DNA of 64,000 nucleotides from Bartonella sp. M0177 (GTDB taxonomy: Bacteria > Pseudomonadota > Alphaproteobacteria > Rhizobiales > Rhizobiaceae), in contig NZ_JACFOY010000002.1 in the NCBI RefSeq assembly GCF_016102285.1, forward strand, positions 1-64,000. The letters run 5' to 3'. Numbering within the stretch: the first letter of the stretch is position 1; every line of letters begins with the position of its first letter. Positions 5,721 through 60,649 of this stretch are shown in pieces. The position numbers were made by a program, and so were the translations under genes. The notes under the pieces are model-generated. The model did no database searches, had not been told where the DNA came from, and worked only from the letters and a program-made list of their open reading frames with translations.

Positions 5721-6376
5721 GAACGGAAAATCCTTGAATAAAGTGTTTCGTGGCGCATTGCCATGATGTCGGATAGAAAACAGCAAGAACCAAGATTATC
5801 AAGTGTAAGCTTATCGCTATTCTTGGTGATAGCAAGAATTGTATTTTCGAGCTTTGCCATTAGTTTGACCCCGTCGCTTTGGCCAAGTGGAACGAGTCTT
5901 ATTGCTGCCTGCACCAGATTTGACAGGAATGTGTGGAGATAGGCCGTCAGGACAGATGGCAATGAAATTTCCATTTGATGTCCGAGAACGCCCACAGCAA
6001 CCGGATAGGGAAGAGCCTTATAAATTTCTTTTGAAAAACCGGTTTGGGCAACTGAGGTACAAAAAGCACGGCCTTGTAAATCAATTTCCAGAAAGCGTTC
6101 TTTCGAGGCAGCGTTTGAATTGGCTATTTCGACAAGCGCAATAATGGATTGCCCTTGATCGGTTGATCTCCACGCTTCGGCAATCAAAACCGCGTCATTA
6201 TGGAGAGATCCGTGATTGGCAAGAGCATCAAGCCAATCAAACAAATCTTCGGCATTTGTGATAAAATTTTCATGGACTGCCTGTTCGAGACCATGGCTAT
6301 AGGCAAAGCCTCCGACCGGAAAGACCGGCGAAAAAAGCGTCATCAAACGCAGTAAAGAGGCATCACCCTGCAACAT
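5717..6376 (-). CDS. ureF: Urease accessory protein UreF
   Basis: A 219-residue, mostly helical protein that bridges UreD and UreG on the apo-urease and acts as gate for nickel incorporation. Recognisable family features are the N-terminal [19 protein letters not shown] segment, which is strongly conserved in UreF, and a C-terminal [13 protein letters not shown] that matches the family's usual ending. The ATG shares one base with the ureE stop (TAATG) and the gene's own stop overlaps the ureG start, so E, F and G are probably translated together. Confidence 0.95.
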
Positions 6377-6840
6377 TAATGATGGTGCCCCGCATGGTCG
6401 TGATAAGCTCCGTGGAGAGGTTGGAAAGGAGCTTCGATCTCTTCTATGGTTGCTCCTAAACCTTCAAGCATAGCGCGAATAACCGGGTCGCGAGAGACAA
6501 GAATCGTATTTTCTTTAATTTCGACTGTTTGATGACGGTTGCCCAAATGCCAGGCAAGTTGGGTAAGCTCAAGGGGAGTTGCCGCTTTGACAGAATAAAG
6601 TGGTTCATTGGCTGCGTGGATGAGAAAATATTCACCGTTTTCAGCTTCAAGAACATCCCCTTCTTTGAGATGGACGGGTTCTTTCAAATCCACCATAATC
6701 ATGTCGCCATTCACAAAATGAAGTAATTTCCGGCGGATATGGCGCTCGTCATGGGAAAGTGAAAGCGCACCTGAAGTTTCAACCCCTTTGGCATCGGACG
6801 CCGGTATATATTTTGTTGATCGAAAAGTTTTATAGGACAT
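6376..6840 (-). CDS. ureE: Urease nickel chaperone UreE
   Basis: Metallochaperone that carries Ni(II) to the urease activation complex. At 154 residues it has the two-domain UreE layout: an N-terminal peptide-binding half with HDERHIRRKLLHF, and a C-terminal metal-binding half with the conserved GNRHQTVEI, where the histidine binds metal at the dimer interface. It ends in a short histidine-rich tail (HGAYHDHAGHHH), which adds nickel capacity, though far less than the long tail of the Klebsiella protein. Seven bases separate it from ureC, and the stop overlaps the ureF start. Confidence 0.95.
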   Translation of the reverse strand: MSYKTFRSTKYIPASDAKGVETSGALSLSHDERHIRRKLLHFVNGDMIMVDLKEPVHLKEGDVLEAENGEYFLIHAANEPLYSVKAATPLELTQLAWHLGNRHQTVEIKENTILVSRDPVIRAMLEGLGATIEEIEAPFQPLHGAYHDHAGHHH

Positions 6841-6847
6841 TTAAACC

Positions 6848-8557
6848 TCAATAAAGGAAATAGCGTTGTGCCATCGGAAGTATCTTCGCCGGTTCGCAGG
6901 TCAATAATTCACCATCTGCGCGCACTTCGTAGGTTTCAGGGTCAACGTCGATATGCGGCGTTGCCGAATTGAGTTTCATGGATTTTTTGGAAATAGTGCG
7001 GGTGTTTTTGACAGCAACGAGTTCCTTTTCAAGTCCTAGCTTTTCAGCTAGCCCATTATCAATGGCGGCTTTGCTGGTAAAGGTGAGAGATGTGTGTTTG
7101 ACAGCCTTTCCGAGAGCGCCGAACATTGGCCGGAAGTGAACCGGTTGCGGTGTTGCAATCGATGCATTGGGGTCGCCCATTGGAGCCGCCGCGATCATTC
7201 CGCCAAGCAAAATCATATCCGGTTTTACACCGAAAAAGGCTGGCGACCAGATAACAATATCGGCACGTTTACCGGTTTCTATCGAACCGGTGACATGACC
7301 GATTCCTTGTGCAATGGCCGGATTGATTGTGTATTTTGCAATATAGCGTTTCACTCGTTCATTATCGTTGAACCCGCTATCTTTCCCCAAATAACCACGT
7401 TGTTTTTTCATTTTATCGGCAGTCTGCCATGTGCGGATAATGACTTCGCCAACTCGTCCCATCGCCTGACTATCCGACGAGATGATAGAAAAAGCGCCGA
7501 GGTCATGCAGAATATCTTCTGCCGCAATTGTTTCCTTGCGTATACGGCTTTCGGCAAAAGCAACATCTTCGGGTATTTTTGCCGACAAGTGGTGACAGAC
7601 CATGAGCATATCAAGATGTTCGGCAATGGTGTTTTTCGTATAGGGGCGTGTGGGGTTGGTGGAGGCAGGCAATACATTTTCAAACCCGCAAACACGGATA
7701 ATATCGGGAGCATGGCCACCGCCGGCACCTTCTGTATGAAAGGCGTGGATTGTTCGGCCTTTGAATGCCGCGATTGTATCTTCGACAAACCCCGCTTCAT
7801 TCAATGTATCGGTGTGGATCATAACTTGCACGTCATAATCATCGGCAACACTCAAACAATTGTCGATTGCCGCAGGAGTGGACCCCCAATCTTCATGAAG
7901 TTTGAGCGAAGAAGCACCGGCATTGACCATTTCGATCAACGCTTCCGGTGAGGATGAATTGCCTTTACCGGCAAGACCAATATTCATTGGCAAGCTGTCT
8001 ACCGCCTGTATCATGCGCGCCAAGTGCCAGGGTCCCGGTGTGCAGGTGGTCGCAAGCGTTCCGTGCGCTGGCCCTGTGCCACCGCCAAACATTGTTGTGA
8101 CGCCGGAATAGAGTGCTTCATTGACCTGCTGGGGGCAAATGAAATGGATATGCGAATCAATTCCGCCAGCAGTTACAATTTTCCCTTCCGCGGCAATAAT
8201 TTCGGTTGCAGGACCAATGATGATATCGACATTCGGTTGAATATCGGGATTGCCGGCTTTACCGATTTTTTCGATAAGCCCGTCTTTCAAACCGATATCG
8301 GCTTTGTAGATGCCGGTATAATCGACAATAAGAGCATTGGTGATAACTGTATCCATAGCCCCTTGTTCACGTGAATACTGGCTTTGCCCCATCCCGTCGC
8401 GGATAACTTTACCGCCGCCGAATTTGACTTCTTCGCCATAAGTTGTCTTGTCATCTTCGACAGTTACGAAAAGGTCTGTATCGGCAAGGCGGATATGGTC
8501 ACCTTTTGTAGGCCCGAACATTTGCGCATAAGCAGCACGCGAAATTTTGTGGCTCAT
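6848..8557 (-). CDS. ureC: Urease alpha subunit UreC (catalytic)
   Basis: Nickel-dependent subunit that hydrolyses urea to ammonia and carbamate in the cytoplasm. The 569-residue sequence keeps all expected active-site parts: the HIH nickel ligands in SHIHFICPQ, the lysine to be carbamylated in SLKLHEDWG, nickel-ligand histidines in MIHTDTL and [10 protein letters not shown], the flap histidine in VCHHL, the arginine in AESRIR, and the aspartate in SSDSQAMGR. The ATG at 8557 overlaps the ureB stop (TGATG); a TTG one codon earlier is less likely. Length and layout match enzymes with separate alpha, beta and gamma subunits. No damage is seen, so the urease should be functional. Confidence 0.98.
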
Positions 8558-8865
8558 CAAAGATCCCCCTGAATTTTTGCACGAAAACCGAAAATGCGAC
8601 GTTTTCCCGCTAATGGTATGAGAAAAACATCTTTTTCCTGCCCCGGTTCAAACCGGACTGCGGTACCGGCCGGAATATCGAGGCGCATTCCACGGGCTTT
8701 TTCACGGTCGAATTGAAGGGCAGGATTGGCTTCATAAAAATGATAATGCGACCCCACTTGAATAGGGCGGTCGCCGCTATTGCCGACTTTGAGTTTTATC
8801 GCACTACGGCCGACATTCATTTCAATATTGCCTGCCTCTGTAATAATTTCTCCGGGAACCATCAT
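8557..8865 (-). CDS. ureB: Urease beta subunit UreB
   Basis: A small structural subunit (102 residues) of the UreABC trimer. It begins MVPGEI and holds the conserved [11 protein letters not shown] segment and the [13 protein letters not shown] stretch. Two ATG codons stand in tandem at the start. The stop overlaps the ureC start by one base. It is separated from ureA by an inserted hupE/ureJ gene, so the operon is not the simple ureABC block of enteric bacteria. Confidence 0.96.
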
Positions 8866-8906
8866 ATTTCTTTCCGATTGTTAGAACAAGTGGCGGGAAT
8901 TCGATT

Positions 8907-9512
8907 TCATGCGACAGCAAATGCCAGATAGAGACCTGCAAGAGTGGTCGCAACACCGCCGATTCTGATTGCGGTTGCGCCATTTGACTGTCCGAAAATT
9001 TTGCCTGCTCCCAAGCCGATTGTAATACCGACACCGTGAAGCAATGCTGTGGCAATAGAAAAACCAATTCCGTAAGCATAGGCTTCGGAATTTTCGAGCT
9101 CGAGACCATGAGCATAACCATGAAAAAGTGCAAAAGCACCGACGACGAGCATGGCGGGCATAATGGGAAGATGAATAGCCATTGCTGCAAAGAGCCCCAT
9201 CGCAATCACGGAAGCAAGAATGACCGGTTCAACATAAGGTAAGGCAATGCCTTTTGTGGCAAGCCAAAAACCGATTGCCATACACACAACAAAACTTGTC
9301 GGAACCGCGAGGATCGATTTTCCGCCGAGTTGAGCTGCCCATAGGCCGACTGCAACCATGACAAGAATATGATCGAATCCGGTTAACGGGTGTAAAAAAC
9401 CGCTTGTAAAAGAGCTATGGTCATGTGGAACGCCGGTAAGGTGGGCAAAAGCCGGTGTGGATGTGAAAATCATCAAAGCAGTTATGGTTGTCGATTTTGA
9501 CAAGAATTTCAT
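8907..9512 (-). CDS. HupE/UreJ-family membrane protein, probable nickel importer
   Basis: Membrane protein of about 201 residues. It has an N-terminal signal peptide ending near TPAFA, then about six hydrophobic spans. The family's histidine motifs are present: HPLTGFDHILVM in the first span and HGYAHGLE in the middle. HupE/UreJ proteins are known or predicted to bring nickel into the cell. The position between ureA and ureB, inside the urease operon, supports a nickel supply role (inference from context). The start at 9512 is chosen because AGGGGA stands six bases upstream and gives a clean signal peptide; an upstream in-frame start would add ten residues. Confidence 0.88.
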   Translation of the reverse strand: MKFLSKSTTITALMIFTSTPAFAHLTGVPHDHSSFTSGFLHPLTGFDHILVMVAVGLWAAQLGGKSILAVPTSFVVCMAIGFWLATKGIALPYVEPVILASVIAMGLFAAMAIHLPIMPAMLVVGAFALFHGYAHGLELENSEAYAYGIGFSIATALLHGVGITIGLGAGKIFGQSNGATAIRIGGVATTLAGLYLAFAVA

Positions 9513-58492: not shown

Positions 58493-59116
58493 ATGGGTAC
58501 TCAAAAAAGACGACTCATCGTTGTTGGAAATGCCGATTTACCGAGAGATTTGTCGGAAGAGATAGATAGCGCAGACTATGTTTTACGCTTCAATCGTCCT
58601 AGACTTCTTGACGGCTGGAGTGGTTCAAAGACCAGTTGTCTGATGATGTGTAACTCCGGCAAGCCAATGCAGCAGAAACTTGAAGATCATTCTTTTCTGG
58701 AATACAAATTTTTTAAACAGGCCGAGCTCATTACACTGGTCTATCATCCCTATATTATGAAGACTTATTTCGCCCGTCCCCGCTTAAGTTCGCAATTATT
58801 AAAACACCGAAGGCTCGACTGGACCGACAAGGCAATCAAAATTTTTGGCGGGGCGAGCAAGGATGTGGTTATAAAATCCGCGCAGTTCTATCTTGAAGCT
58901 TGTGCTGAAATCGGCATTGAAGGCCATAAACTCAAGGAATGGTTTCCATCGACCGGCTATCTCGGCATTTGGGATTGTTTGAAACAGTTCGATTTGTCGG
59001 AATGGGAAATTTTCATCTGCGGTTTTACCTGGCAGGGGTGGAAGCACCATGCCTGGTCAACAGAAGAAAAATGGGTGCGTGAGCGAATAGCCGAGGGAAC
59101 TTGCCATTTCTTGTAA
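58493..59116 (+). CDS. GT29 (sialyltransferase-like) family protein
   Basis: A 207-residue protein with the pattern of family GT29. Near the N-terminus, VVGNADL (10-16), EIDSADYVLRFN (23-34) and SGSKTS (43-48) match the large sialylmotif; PSTGYLG (152-158) up to ICGF (175-178) matches the small sialylmotif; H186 and E191 give the H-x4-E of motif VS. There is no signal peptide or span, so it should be cytoplasmic. GT29 is best known from animal sialyltransferases and plant relatives; a bacterial protein of this type may move sialic acid, Kdo or another nonulosonate-like sugar (inference). Relatives in rhizobia sometimes have the name urease operon accessory protein, which has no visible basis. 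It is followed by GT25 and deacetylase genes, in one direction. Confidence 0.78.
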   Translation: MGTQKRRLIVVGNADLPRDLSEEIDSADYVLRFNRPRLLDGWSGSKTSCLMMCNSGKPMQQKLEDHSFLEYKFFKQAELITLVYHPYIMKTYFARPRLSSQLLKHRRLDWTDKAIKIFGGASKDVVIKSAQFYLEACAEIGIEGHKLKEWFPSTGYLGIWDCLKQFDLSEWEIFICGFTWQGWKHHAWSTEEKWVRERIAEGTCHFL

Positions 59117-59208
59117 CAAGCGTGATTGATCGCCGTTGTTTTCTTTTCATGCAATCCGTATTATGACAAAAAACTTGTCGGTTCCGCTGTCGGATTTTCA
59201 GGATAACT

Positions 59209-59949
59209 ATGAACGGCTCATTAAAAACCATTAAAGCACTTGTTATTCATCTTGAACGGGCAAATGAGCGGGAAAGTCAGGTAGCGCTTCTGAAGAAATG
59301 TCTCCCATGTCCGACAATTATTTTAAACGCGATAGATAGTCTTTCTCTTGATGATCAAACAATTCATCACTTTTATCAAAAAAAGCTCTATCGTCCTTAT
59401 TATCCTTTCACATTATCAAAAAATGAAATTGCATGTTTTCTATCTCACAGGCTCGCCTGGCAAAAAATAATTGATGAGAGGTTGGATGCCGGTTTTGTTG
59501 TTGAAGACGATGTTGCCCTCGACGAGCGATTTGATGAAGTTTTCCGTTTCGCAGTTGATAACGGTAATTGCGACAGTTTCATCCGTTTTCCTTTCCGGTT
59601 GCGCGAGACCGGTAAAATAATTGCCGAAAAAGGCGACATCAAACTGATCAGGCCAACAGAAACCGGTTTGGGGCAGGTTGCCCAGCTAGTGGGCCGGAAT
59701 GCCGCCAAAAAACTTCTTGATGCAACCGGAATATTCGATCGGCCGGTTGACACAAGCGAGCAACTTTATTGGAAAACCGGTGTTCATCCGGAGGTTATTC
59801 TACCGCCAGTGGTTCGCGAAATTTCTGCAAAGCTGGGCGGCTCGACAATAAAAAGTAAACATTCATTTTTTGCCCGCCTTTACCGTGAAATAGCACGTCC
59901 GCTTTATCGGCATCGTATCAGGGCTTTATCAAAACGTCAGGAAGGTTGA
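59209..59949 (+). CDS. Glycosyltransferase family 25 protein (LPS-type)
   Basis: A 246-residue glycosyltransferase. It opens with IKALVIHLERANERESQVALL, the GT25 start. The motif NEIACFLSHRLAW at about 72-84 and the metal-binding VVEDDV at 98-102 are standard for LgtB/LpsA-type galactosyl- or glucosyltransferases of LPS. The C-terminal part is basic (HRIRALSKRQEG) and may touch the membrane. One base separates it from the deacetylase gene, so the two are coupled. The acceptor is presumably a cell-surface glycan. Confidence 0.87.
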   Translation: MNGSLKTIKALVIHLERANERESQVALLKKCLPCPTIILNAIDSLSLDDQTIHHFYQKKLYRPYYPFTLSKNEIACFLSHRLAWQKIIDERLDAGFVVEDDVALDERFDEVFRFAVDNGNCDSFIRFPFRLRETGKIIAEKGDIKLIRPTETGLGQVAQLVGRNAAKKLLDATGIFDRPVDTSEQLYWKTGVHPEVILPPVVREISAKLGGSTIKSKHSFFARLYREIARPLYRHRIRALSKRQEG

Positions 59950-59950
59950 G

Positions 59951-60649
59951 ATGGCTGTCCCCATTCTTCTCTATCATCACATTGGAATGCCACCCAAGGC
60001 AGGAATTCCGGGGCGCTCGAATTATGTAACTGTTAAAAATTTTGCCAAACAGATGCGCGTTCTGAAACGGCTTGGCTTTAAAGGTTTGTCTCTCAGAGAG
60101 GCAATGCCCTATATTCGTGGTGAGAAAAAAGACAGAGTTGCAGCTATTACTTTCGACGACGGTTTTTTATCTGTCTATCAGGACGCTATGCCTATTCTCG
60201 ACGAATTGGGGTTCAGTGCCACGAATTTTTTTGTCTCCTCCCATATGGGACTTGATAATTCATGGGATAACGAGCGTTCCGAACGCAATAAAATCATGAC
60301 ATTTGACGAAATGAGAGACTGGGCCGCCCATGGACATGAAGTGGGGGGCCACACGAATGACCACCTGCATTTGAAAGATATTCCGCTTCAAGAAGCAAAA
60401 CGTCAGATCGTCGAAAACAAGCAAAAGCTTGAGGAAGAGCTCGGGGCGCCACTTGTCTCTTTTGCCTATCCATTTGGTGATGAAAATGAAGCGATACGCA
60501 AAATAGTGCGAGATGCCGGTTATCATTTTGCTGTAACAACCATTAAATCACGAGCTCGTGGAAATGAAGGGGATTACGAACTGCCAAGACACAGCATTCG
60601 CCGCAATGACACAATTTTGCATTTTTTAGCCAAATGTCTATTGCGCTAA
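59951..60649 (+). CDS. Polysaccharide deacetylase (NodB-type)
   Basis: A 232-residue carbohydrate esterase of family 4. It has the catalytic TFDDG (67-71), the zinc-binding HTNDH (134-138), and AYPFGDENEAI as the third motif. No signal peptide is visible, so it acts in the cytoplasm or on a lipid-linked precursor facing the cytoplasm. Its start follows the GT25 stop by one base, which suggests the product deacetylates the sugar that GT25 or the GT29-like protein handles (inference). Confidence 0.88.
   Translation: MAVPILLYHHIGMPPKAGIPGRSNYVTVKNFAKQMRVLKRLGFKGLSLREAMPYIRGEKKDRVAAITFDDGFLSVYQDAMPILDELGFSATNFFVSSHMGLDNSWDNERSERNKIMTFDEMRDWAAHGHEVGGHTNDHLHLKDIPLQEAKRQIVENKQKLEEELGAPLVSFAYPFGDENEAIRKIVRDAGYHFAVTTIKSRARGNEGDYELPRHSIRRNDTILHFLAKCLLR

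Follow-up and report, generated by a model that had tools for sequence, protein, structure and literature searches.

A short-loop GT29-like gene conserved beside GT25 and NodB-type deacetylase genes in Bartonella

The window, which is the whole stretch of 64,000 nucleotides analyzed from Bartonella sp. M0177, carries three adjacent forward-strand genes that encode a GT29-like protein, a GT25-family glycosyltransferase, and a polysaccharide deacetylase. The genome holding the window (G000) is of the Bartonella type, more closely that of the honeybee gut, and comprises 2.62 Mb in 3 contigs. The genes, and the sialylmotif-like blocks within the first of them, are as follows.

58493..59116, + strand: GT29-like short-loop glycosyltransferase gene, 207 amino acids, without a strongly hydrophobic 19-residue stretch
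58517..58594, + strand: sialylmotif L-like block, residues 9 to 34 (VVGN ... EIDSADYVLRFN), from profile alignment
58946..59026, + strand: sialylmotif S-like block, residues 152 to 178 (PSTG ... GF), from profile alignment
59048..59065, + strand: sialylmotif VS-like block, residues 186 to 191 (H-x4-E), with the putative catalytic base H186
59209..59949, + strand: GT25-family glycosyltransferase gene, 246 amino acids, EDD motif, PF01755 at 80.9 bits
59951..60649, + strand: NodB-type polysaccharide deacetylase gene, 232 amino acids, FDDG and HxxxH motifs, PF01522 at 89.4 bits

All three reading frames lie where the preliminary description had placed them, and the reality of the gene and of its gene cluster is well supported. 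The two downstream proteins score above the Pfam cut-offs of their families (24 bits for PF01755 and 23.1 bits for Polysacc_deac_1), and the metal-site motifs of the deacetylase are found at residues 68 (FDDG) and 134 (HTNDH). NCBIfam assigns no family to the GT29-like protein or the GT25 protein, and PADLOC matched none of the three proteins, so a link to defence was not found. The GT25 and deacetylase genes had been described as starting one base apart, which is wrong: the ATG of the deacetylase lies one base past the stop codon of GT25. By match coordinates, the gap between these two genes is four bases (the stop codon plus one) in all 13 trio-bearing genomes of the genus. The GT29-like gene ends 92 bp before the GT25 start, a distance that makes a common transcript likely, and the three genes are thus predicted to be transcribed together. 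Their GC contents (0.449, 0.437, and 0.449) are close to that of the window (0.458), and the flanking genes, named LysR, AsmA, and MOSC by Pfam and FolD, CidA, and CidB by eye, are unchanged at every Bartonella locus long enough to display them; on these two grounds, a recent foreign island was rejected. The dN/dS ratios of 0.07 to 0.12 in the three window pairs with unsaturated dS indicate purifying selection, and four further window pairs had saturated dS and gave no ratio. Conservation and dN/dS also led to the rejection of a chance reading frame. The closest named relatives found for the 207-residue protein are those of B. apihabitans (97% identity) and B. choladocola (92% identity). Both are species of the honeybee gut.

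The sole Pfam match of the 207-residue protein is GT29 (PF00777; E value of 8.2e-5). The profile check suggested earlier thus returned the expected family, but at 22.6 bits, which is 0.4 below the cut-off of 23. PF00777 also matches 12 of the 13 bacterial relatives from which a profile named A2 was built (E value of ≤10; best, 3.3e-8), and it is rare in the order, being found in 10 of 297 genomes (8 over the cut-off) and in none of 14 control genomes. In a search of A2 against PDB sequences, the six best are all GT29 (1.8e-6 to 0.0057), with matches to ST3Gal1 (1.8e-6), ST6GalNAc2 (1.4e-4), and ST6Gal1 (1.3e-3 to 5.7e-3), and YoeB chains follow at 0.82. Profiles of the glycosyltransferase-cluster group (A5) and of the Rhizobium/Bartonella group (A6) also place ST3Gal1 first, at 4e-5 and 2.9e-4, respectively, and the three bacterial proteins L056 to L058, all above the Pfam cut-off, yield a profile (A8) that reaches GT29 structures at 1.2e-8. 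Against the same database, the profile of the urease clade (A4) matched no GT29 structure, and the single window protein matched no sialyltransferase. An hhalign comparison of the Bartonella rows with A8 covers motif L only, over 48 columns, with a probability of 92.7.

A first structure prediction, based on 6 close sequences, was discarded with a pLDDT of 47.9. The second AlphaFold2 model, from 7 sequences, has a pLDDT of 77.4 and a pTM of 0.78; it leans on one remote sequence (L059, 27% identical), and the means of the five models range from 53.9 to 77.4. This model matches human ST6GalNAc2 in Foldseek at an E value of 6.2e-5. The top 14 rows of the VIA-align search are GT29 structures (Z of 10.1 to 11.5, rmsd of 3.3 to 4.1, and 164 to 182 residues) and span the ST3Gal, ST6Gal, ST6GalNAc, and ST8Sia enzymes, which are all four animal types, so the comparison with ST6Gal and ST3Gal folds came out as the preliminary description anticipated. 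They are followed by a Pasteurella sialyltransferase, whose Z of 10.0 ties with the lower GT29 rows (Z of 10.1), then by Campylobacter CstI and CstII (Z of 8.9 to 9.5) and by the best unrelated row at 8.4, with kinases from there down. A PDB family absent from the fold-search list was not counted as excluded. The computed model thus has the modified GT-A fold of GT29. CstI and CstII of GT42 share the overall fold class, but their Z values are below those of the best GT29 rows, and in the profile search of the PDB, GT29 was matched and GT42 was not; membership in GT42 was therefore rejected. The A2, A5, and A6 profiles and the predicted fold agree, and the relationship of the protein to GT29 by sequence and predicted fold is supported.

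The sialylmotif L-, S-, and VS-like blocks that had been read from the sequence are present and in order, with VVGN at residues 10 to 13, EIDSADYVLRFN at 23 to 34, PSTG at 152 to 155, GF at 177 and 178, and H186-x4-E191. Residues G12, N13, R32, N34, S153, G155, G177, F178, H186, and E191 are kept in all 35 aligned family rows, and P152 is kept in 34, so the H-x4-E and PSTG blocks also hold in the homologs. These rows comprise 32 short-family and 3 A8 sequences; gt_G153 was left out, and its in-frame locus keeps the same residues. N13 and N34 align with N150 and N173 of pig ST3Gal1. The available part of the ST3Gal1 source states that human N147 and N170 touch the CMP phosphate (PMC6884586), and this donor-contacting pair is present in 35 of 35 rows. 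Motif L with its donor Asn, motif S, and motif VS are thus all found, and the donor-site residues retained in the protein are N13, N34, and S153-T154-G155.

A separate motif III (H-Y-Y/F/W/H-E/D...) was not found in the family rows, in which no separate second His is conserved (7 of the 35 have a His at position 185); the absence of motif III had escaped the first reading. In human ST3Gal1, motif III supplies the catalytic acid, H299, and motif VS the base, H316, according to the accessible text (PMC6884586). The distance from the G of GF to the invariant His is exactly 9 residues in 32 of 32 short-family rows and 19 to 20 residues in the three A8 proteins, and it is 28 in pig ST3Gal1 by profile alignment and the human/pig numbering given in that text (PMC6884586). 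As judged from these alignments, the spacing of 9 versus 28 indicates that the motif III loop is lost from the short-loop family together with the catalytic-acid His. The fold alignment matches residue 207 of the model to residue 340 of 2wml. Counting back 21 residues from this point leads to H186 in the model and, in the pig enzyme, to H319, the equivalent of the human base H316 in the same partial source (PMC6884586). Because the two His share this end-point register, the retained H186 is most likely the VS catalytic base. H186-x-W188 is also motif III-like, and the 13-row profile alignment pairs H186 with the motif III His, which suggests that motifs III and VS may be fused at H186. The disulphide of the GT29 family joins the cysteines of motifs L and S, exemplified by C142-C281 of human ST3Gal1 in the available text (PMC6884586). 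All nine Bartonella rows have a leucine (L8) five positions ahead of N13, and the absence of the motif L cysteine might be expected of a cytosolic protein.

Within the genus Bartonella, the GT29-like gene is present in 13 of 71 genomes, and close matches to the GT25 and deacetylase genes are each present in 14. The trio has the same gene order in all 13 GT29-bearing genomes and recurs in another genus of the same family (G816) at 43%, 50%, and 47% identity, so the linkage noticed in the window is that of a conserved module. The fourteenth genome (G003) has the GT25-deacetylase pair with the same flanks and no GT29 beside it. The slot between LysR and GT25 in this genome is occupied by a Stealth-family gene (PF11380, 93.1 bits; L113:10867-11880, - strand), as if swapped in for another surface-glycan enzyme. 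The pair is also found without an adjoining GT29 in R. tropici CIAT 899 and Rhizobium CCGE532, which have GT29 relatives elsewhere. One trio genome (G021) has a disrupted GT25 frame. In the B. apihabitans BBC0178 record (L001:8717-9453), the frame is disrupted by either gene loss or a sequencing error, and related genomes have intact copies. Genome G361 has two tandem GT29 copies with a partial LysR copy in between (L114:7678-9537); a DNA identity of 86% over about 1.2 kb indicates a local duplication, and the dN of 0.15 and dS of 0.97 between the copies indicate purifying selection.

Outside the genus, a Bartonella-only profile matched 10 of 398 genomes of the phylum, and A2 matched 37 of 397 genomes of the order, many over motif-sized stretches only. 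Three relatives (L047, L048, and L052) lie near GT2, GT4, or GT28-type genes, and L048 and L052 represent a further GT29-like clade. In L052, a PIG-L-type deacetylase gene is also found at a distance of about 2 kb, a second case of a GT29-like gene near a deacetylase. In L056, the GT29 gene (8533-9111, - strand), whose protein scores above the Pfam cut-off, shares part of its length with an ABC-transporter-like gene, and directly next to it is a gene that by eye resembles a polysaccharide pyruvyl transferase. Scans of viral contigs with A4, A5, A6, and A8 gave no further relatives, the scan with A2 gave one, and no phage record was matched. The L059 relative (5956-6594) comes from an IMG/VR contig, where it is flanked by an endolysin gene on one side and by tail fibre genes on the other; this setting suggests that it belongs to a prophage and might modify the surface of the host.

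Phylogenetic relationships were analyzed in a 35-row maximum-likelihood tree, which is midpoint rooted for drawing and carries a long-branch warning that includes the canonical rows. The nine Bartonella rows group together (support of 100/99), and their sister rows are from Rhizobium, Phyllobacterium, and G816, including its trio copy (weaker support of 91/68), with 99/95 for the branch above both. A second group contains eight urease-operon rows and three others (99/99). The A2 scan of the order matched seven non-Bartonella genomes of the same family, and in six of them the GT29-like gene lies immediately upstream of ureC, behind ureA, ureB, and an LprI-like gene. The urease-operon loci, all between ureB and ureC, are L079:5989-6639, L084:5998-6630, L085, L086, L088, L089, L090, and L092. 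The same ure site holds a GT29-like gene in Shinella, where no LprI-like gene was detected, and on S. meliloti pSymB, whose annotation calls the product a "urease accessory protein." A relative on a Rhizobium plasmid is named "Urease operon accessory protein," and no urease genes lie within 7 kb of it. In the 35-row alignment, the donor-site and VS residues of the urease rows are all intact.

The preliminary description had called GT29 chiefly a eukaryotic family. This needs qualifying, as GT29-like sequences with motifs L, S, III, and VS were reported from alpha-, gamma-, and epsilonproteobacteria by Petit et al. in 2018, who suggested a proteobacterial origin of eukaryotic GT29; neither Bartonella nor Rhizobium is mentioned in the available portion of their main text (PMC5811610). 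In contrast to that set, as described in this portion, the short-loop family has no motif III (PMC5811610). The eukaryotic enzymes (ST3Gal1, ST6GalNAc2, ST6Gal1, and ST8SiaIII) have in common with the Bartonella protein the order of motif L and S residues, H-x4-E, and the predicted fold (Z of 10.1 to 11.5), whereas the latter is only 207 residues long, has no membrane anchor that was seen, no separate motif III, and no conserved motif L cysteine, and has a shorter distance from GF to His than pig ST3Gal1. The bacterial L056 to L058 proteins are likewise short (183 to 197 residues) and have the same conserved residues but differ in the length of this loop. Among the open-licence literature matches listed, no title or start of abstract pointed to GT29 in Bartonella or in urease operons, nothing was found for "urease operon accessory protein," and GT29 appeared together with urease in one paper, on bacteriocins. 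Bacterial GT29 is therefore already known, and the short-loop subfamily, the trio, and the urease-operon sister clade, as predicted from sequence, appear to be new among the literature matches listed.

The locus had been proposed to put a sialic-acid-like or Kdo-like sugar on the cell surface, perhaps as host mimicry. NeuB (PF03102) is found in none of the 71 genomes of the genus and in 9 of the 14 controls. The two CTP_transf_3 (PF02348) matches in G000 are KdsB (419 bits, cut-off of 281) and GlmU, and no CMP-sialic acid synthetase was found among them. The survey of CMP-sugar genes thus turned up the Kdo branch in G000 and no NeuB-type synthase in the 71 genomes of the genus, no evidence for host mimicry was found, and a role in sialic acid transfer or mimicry is unsupported. 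KdsB is the sole CMP-ulosonate synthetase found in G000, and therefore CMP-Kdo is the only CMP-ulosonate donor visible. G000 also has one match to PF04413, which we take to be the WaaA Kdo-transferase family, so the GT29-like enzyme would be an additional Kdo transferase. Bacterial Kdo transferases beyond WaaA do exist, such as Acinetobacter KdoT, for which a GT-B fold is proposed in the text available (PMC12856342). The plant GT29 RCKT1 is required for Kdo in RG-II, as shown with mutants and not yet in vitro in the accessible part of its source (PMC11288761). According to this part, plant RCKT1/MGP2 is similar to the Bartonella protein in its GT29 motifs, in a host with little or no sialic acid, and in a proposed CMP-Kdo donor, and it differs as a Golgi membrane enzyme acting on the pectin RG-II; the likeness is by description and not by sequence (PMC11288761).

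These observations point to a minimal GT29-fold protein that would transfer Kdo from CMP-Kdo and, jointly with the GT25 enzyme and the deacetylase, modify a surface glycan; we give this reading about an even chance. From its family, the protein is predicted to act in the cytosol as an inverting glycosyltransferase and to bind a keto-sugar acid activated by CMP, by elimination CMP-Kdo; H186 would deprotonate the acceptor hydroxyl, leaving the sugar in an alpha linkage. The acid His of motif III is absent, and therefore the leaving group would need other help. From gene order, GT25 would put a sugar, perhaps HexNAc, onto a lipid-linked surface glycan, the deacetylase would then free the amino group of this sugar, and the GT29-like enzyme would attach Kdo to this glycan as well; the product would be a charged oligosaccharide of the outer core or of another part of the cell surface. 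GT25 and a deacetylase together can yield a free-amine sugar in LPS cores. The GT29 relatives that occur without the GT25-deacetylase pair, and the pairs that occur without an adjoining GT29 in G003, R. tropici, and CCGE532, count against this reading of the trio, as does the disrupted GT25 frame of G021. Also against it are the Pfam score under the cut-off, the PDB searches with the single protein and with A4, the restriction of the A8 alignment to motif L, and the small set of sequences behind the fold model.

The same surface glycan could be modified from a different donor, such as a UDP-hexose or an unrecognised CMP-sugar, which is doubtful but possible. With the motif III loop and its acid His missing, the donor chemistry may differ, and a plant GT29 named GALT29A is listed in the available text (PMC11288761); this name implies a galactosyl donor, and by analogy GT29 folds may not all be CMP-sugar users. 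The invariance of the Asn pair that contacts the CMP phosphate in ST3Gal1, as given in the partial source (PMC6884586), argues the other way. The loss of motif III and the position of the rhizobial sister clade between ureB and ureC, with no obvious glycan role, could instead be explained by a nonenzymatic or repurposed GT29 fold, such as an accessory or regulatory protein. This seems improbable, given that the donor-site and VS residues are invariant in every clade examined, the Bartonella branch adjoins GT25 and deacetylase genes, and L047, L048, and L052 lie near glycosyltransferase genes. The presence of sialylmotifs L, S, and VS would also suit a sialyltransferase whose sialic acid is taken up from the surroundings, a reading that the assignment of both CTP_transf_3 matches in G000 to KdsB and GlmU and the lack of NeuB in the genus make very unlikely indeed. 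A broader extension of the CMP-Kdo reading is quite speculative and has a slim chance of being correct: the short-loop clades (the Bartonella/Rhizobium trio, the urease-operon clade, and the glycosyltransferase-cluster clade) would form a one-His Kdo-transferase subfamily of GT29, Kdo transfer would be older than sialic acid transfer, and in one branch a modification of the Kdo type, on the surface or on protein, would be linked to rhizobial urease expression.

In animal cells, the sialic acid caps are made by GT29 enzymes. The 2018 study, which reports no tested bacterial GT29 enzyme in its available portion, traced the family to proteobacteria (PMC5811610). Soluble relatives of 207 residues that lack motif III lend themselves well to probing the activity of the bacterial ancestors and the use of a Kdo donor. 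Such a result would name an unstudied surface-glycan module of the bee-gut Bartonella and would give a glycosyltransferase fold to a rhizobial gene labelled as a urease (operon) accessory protein.
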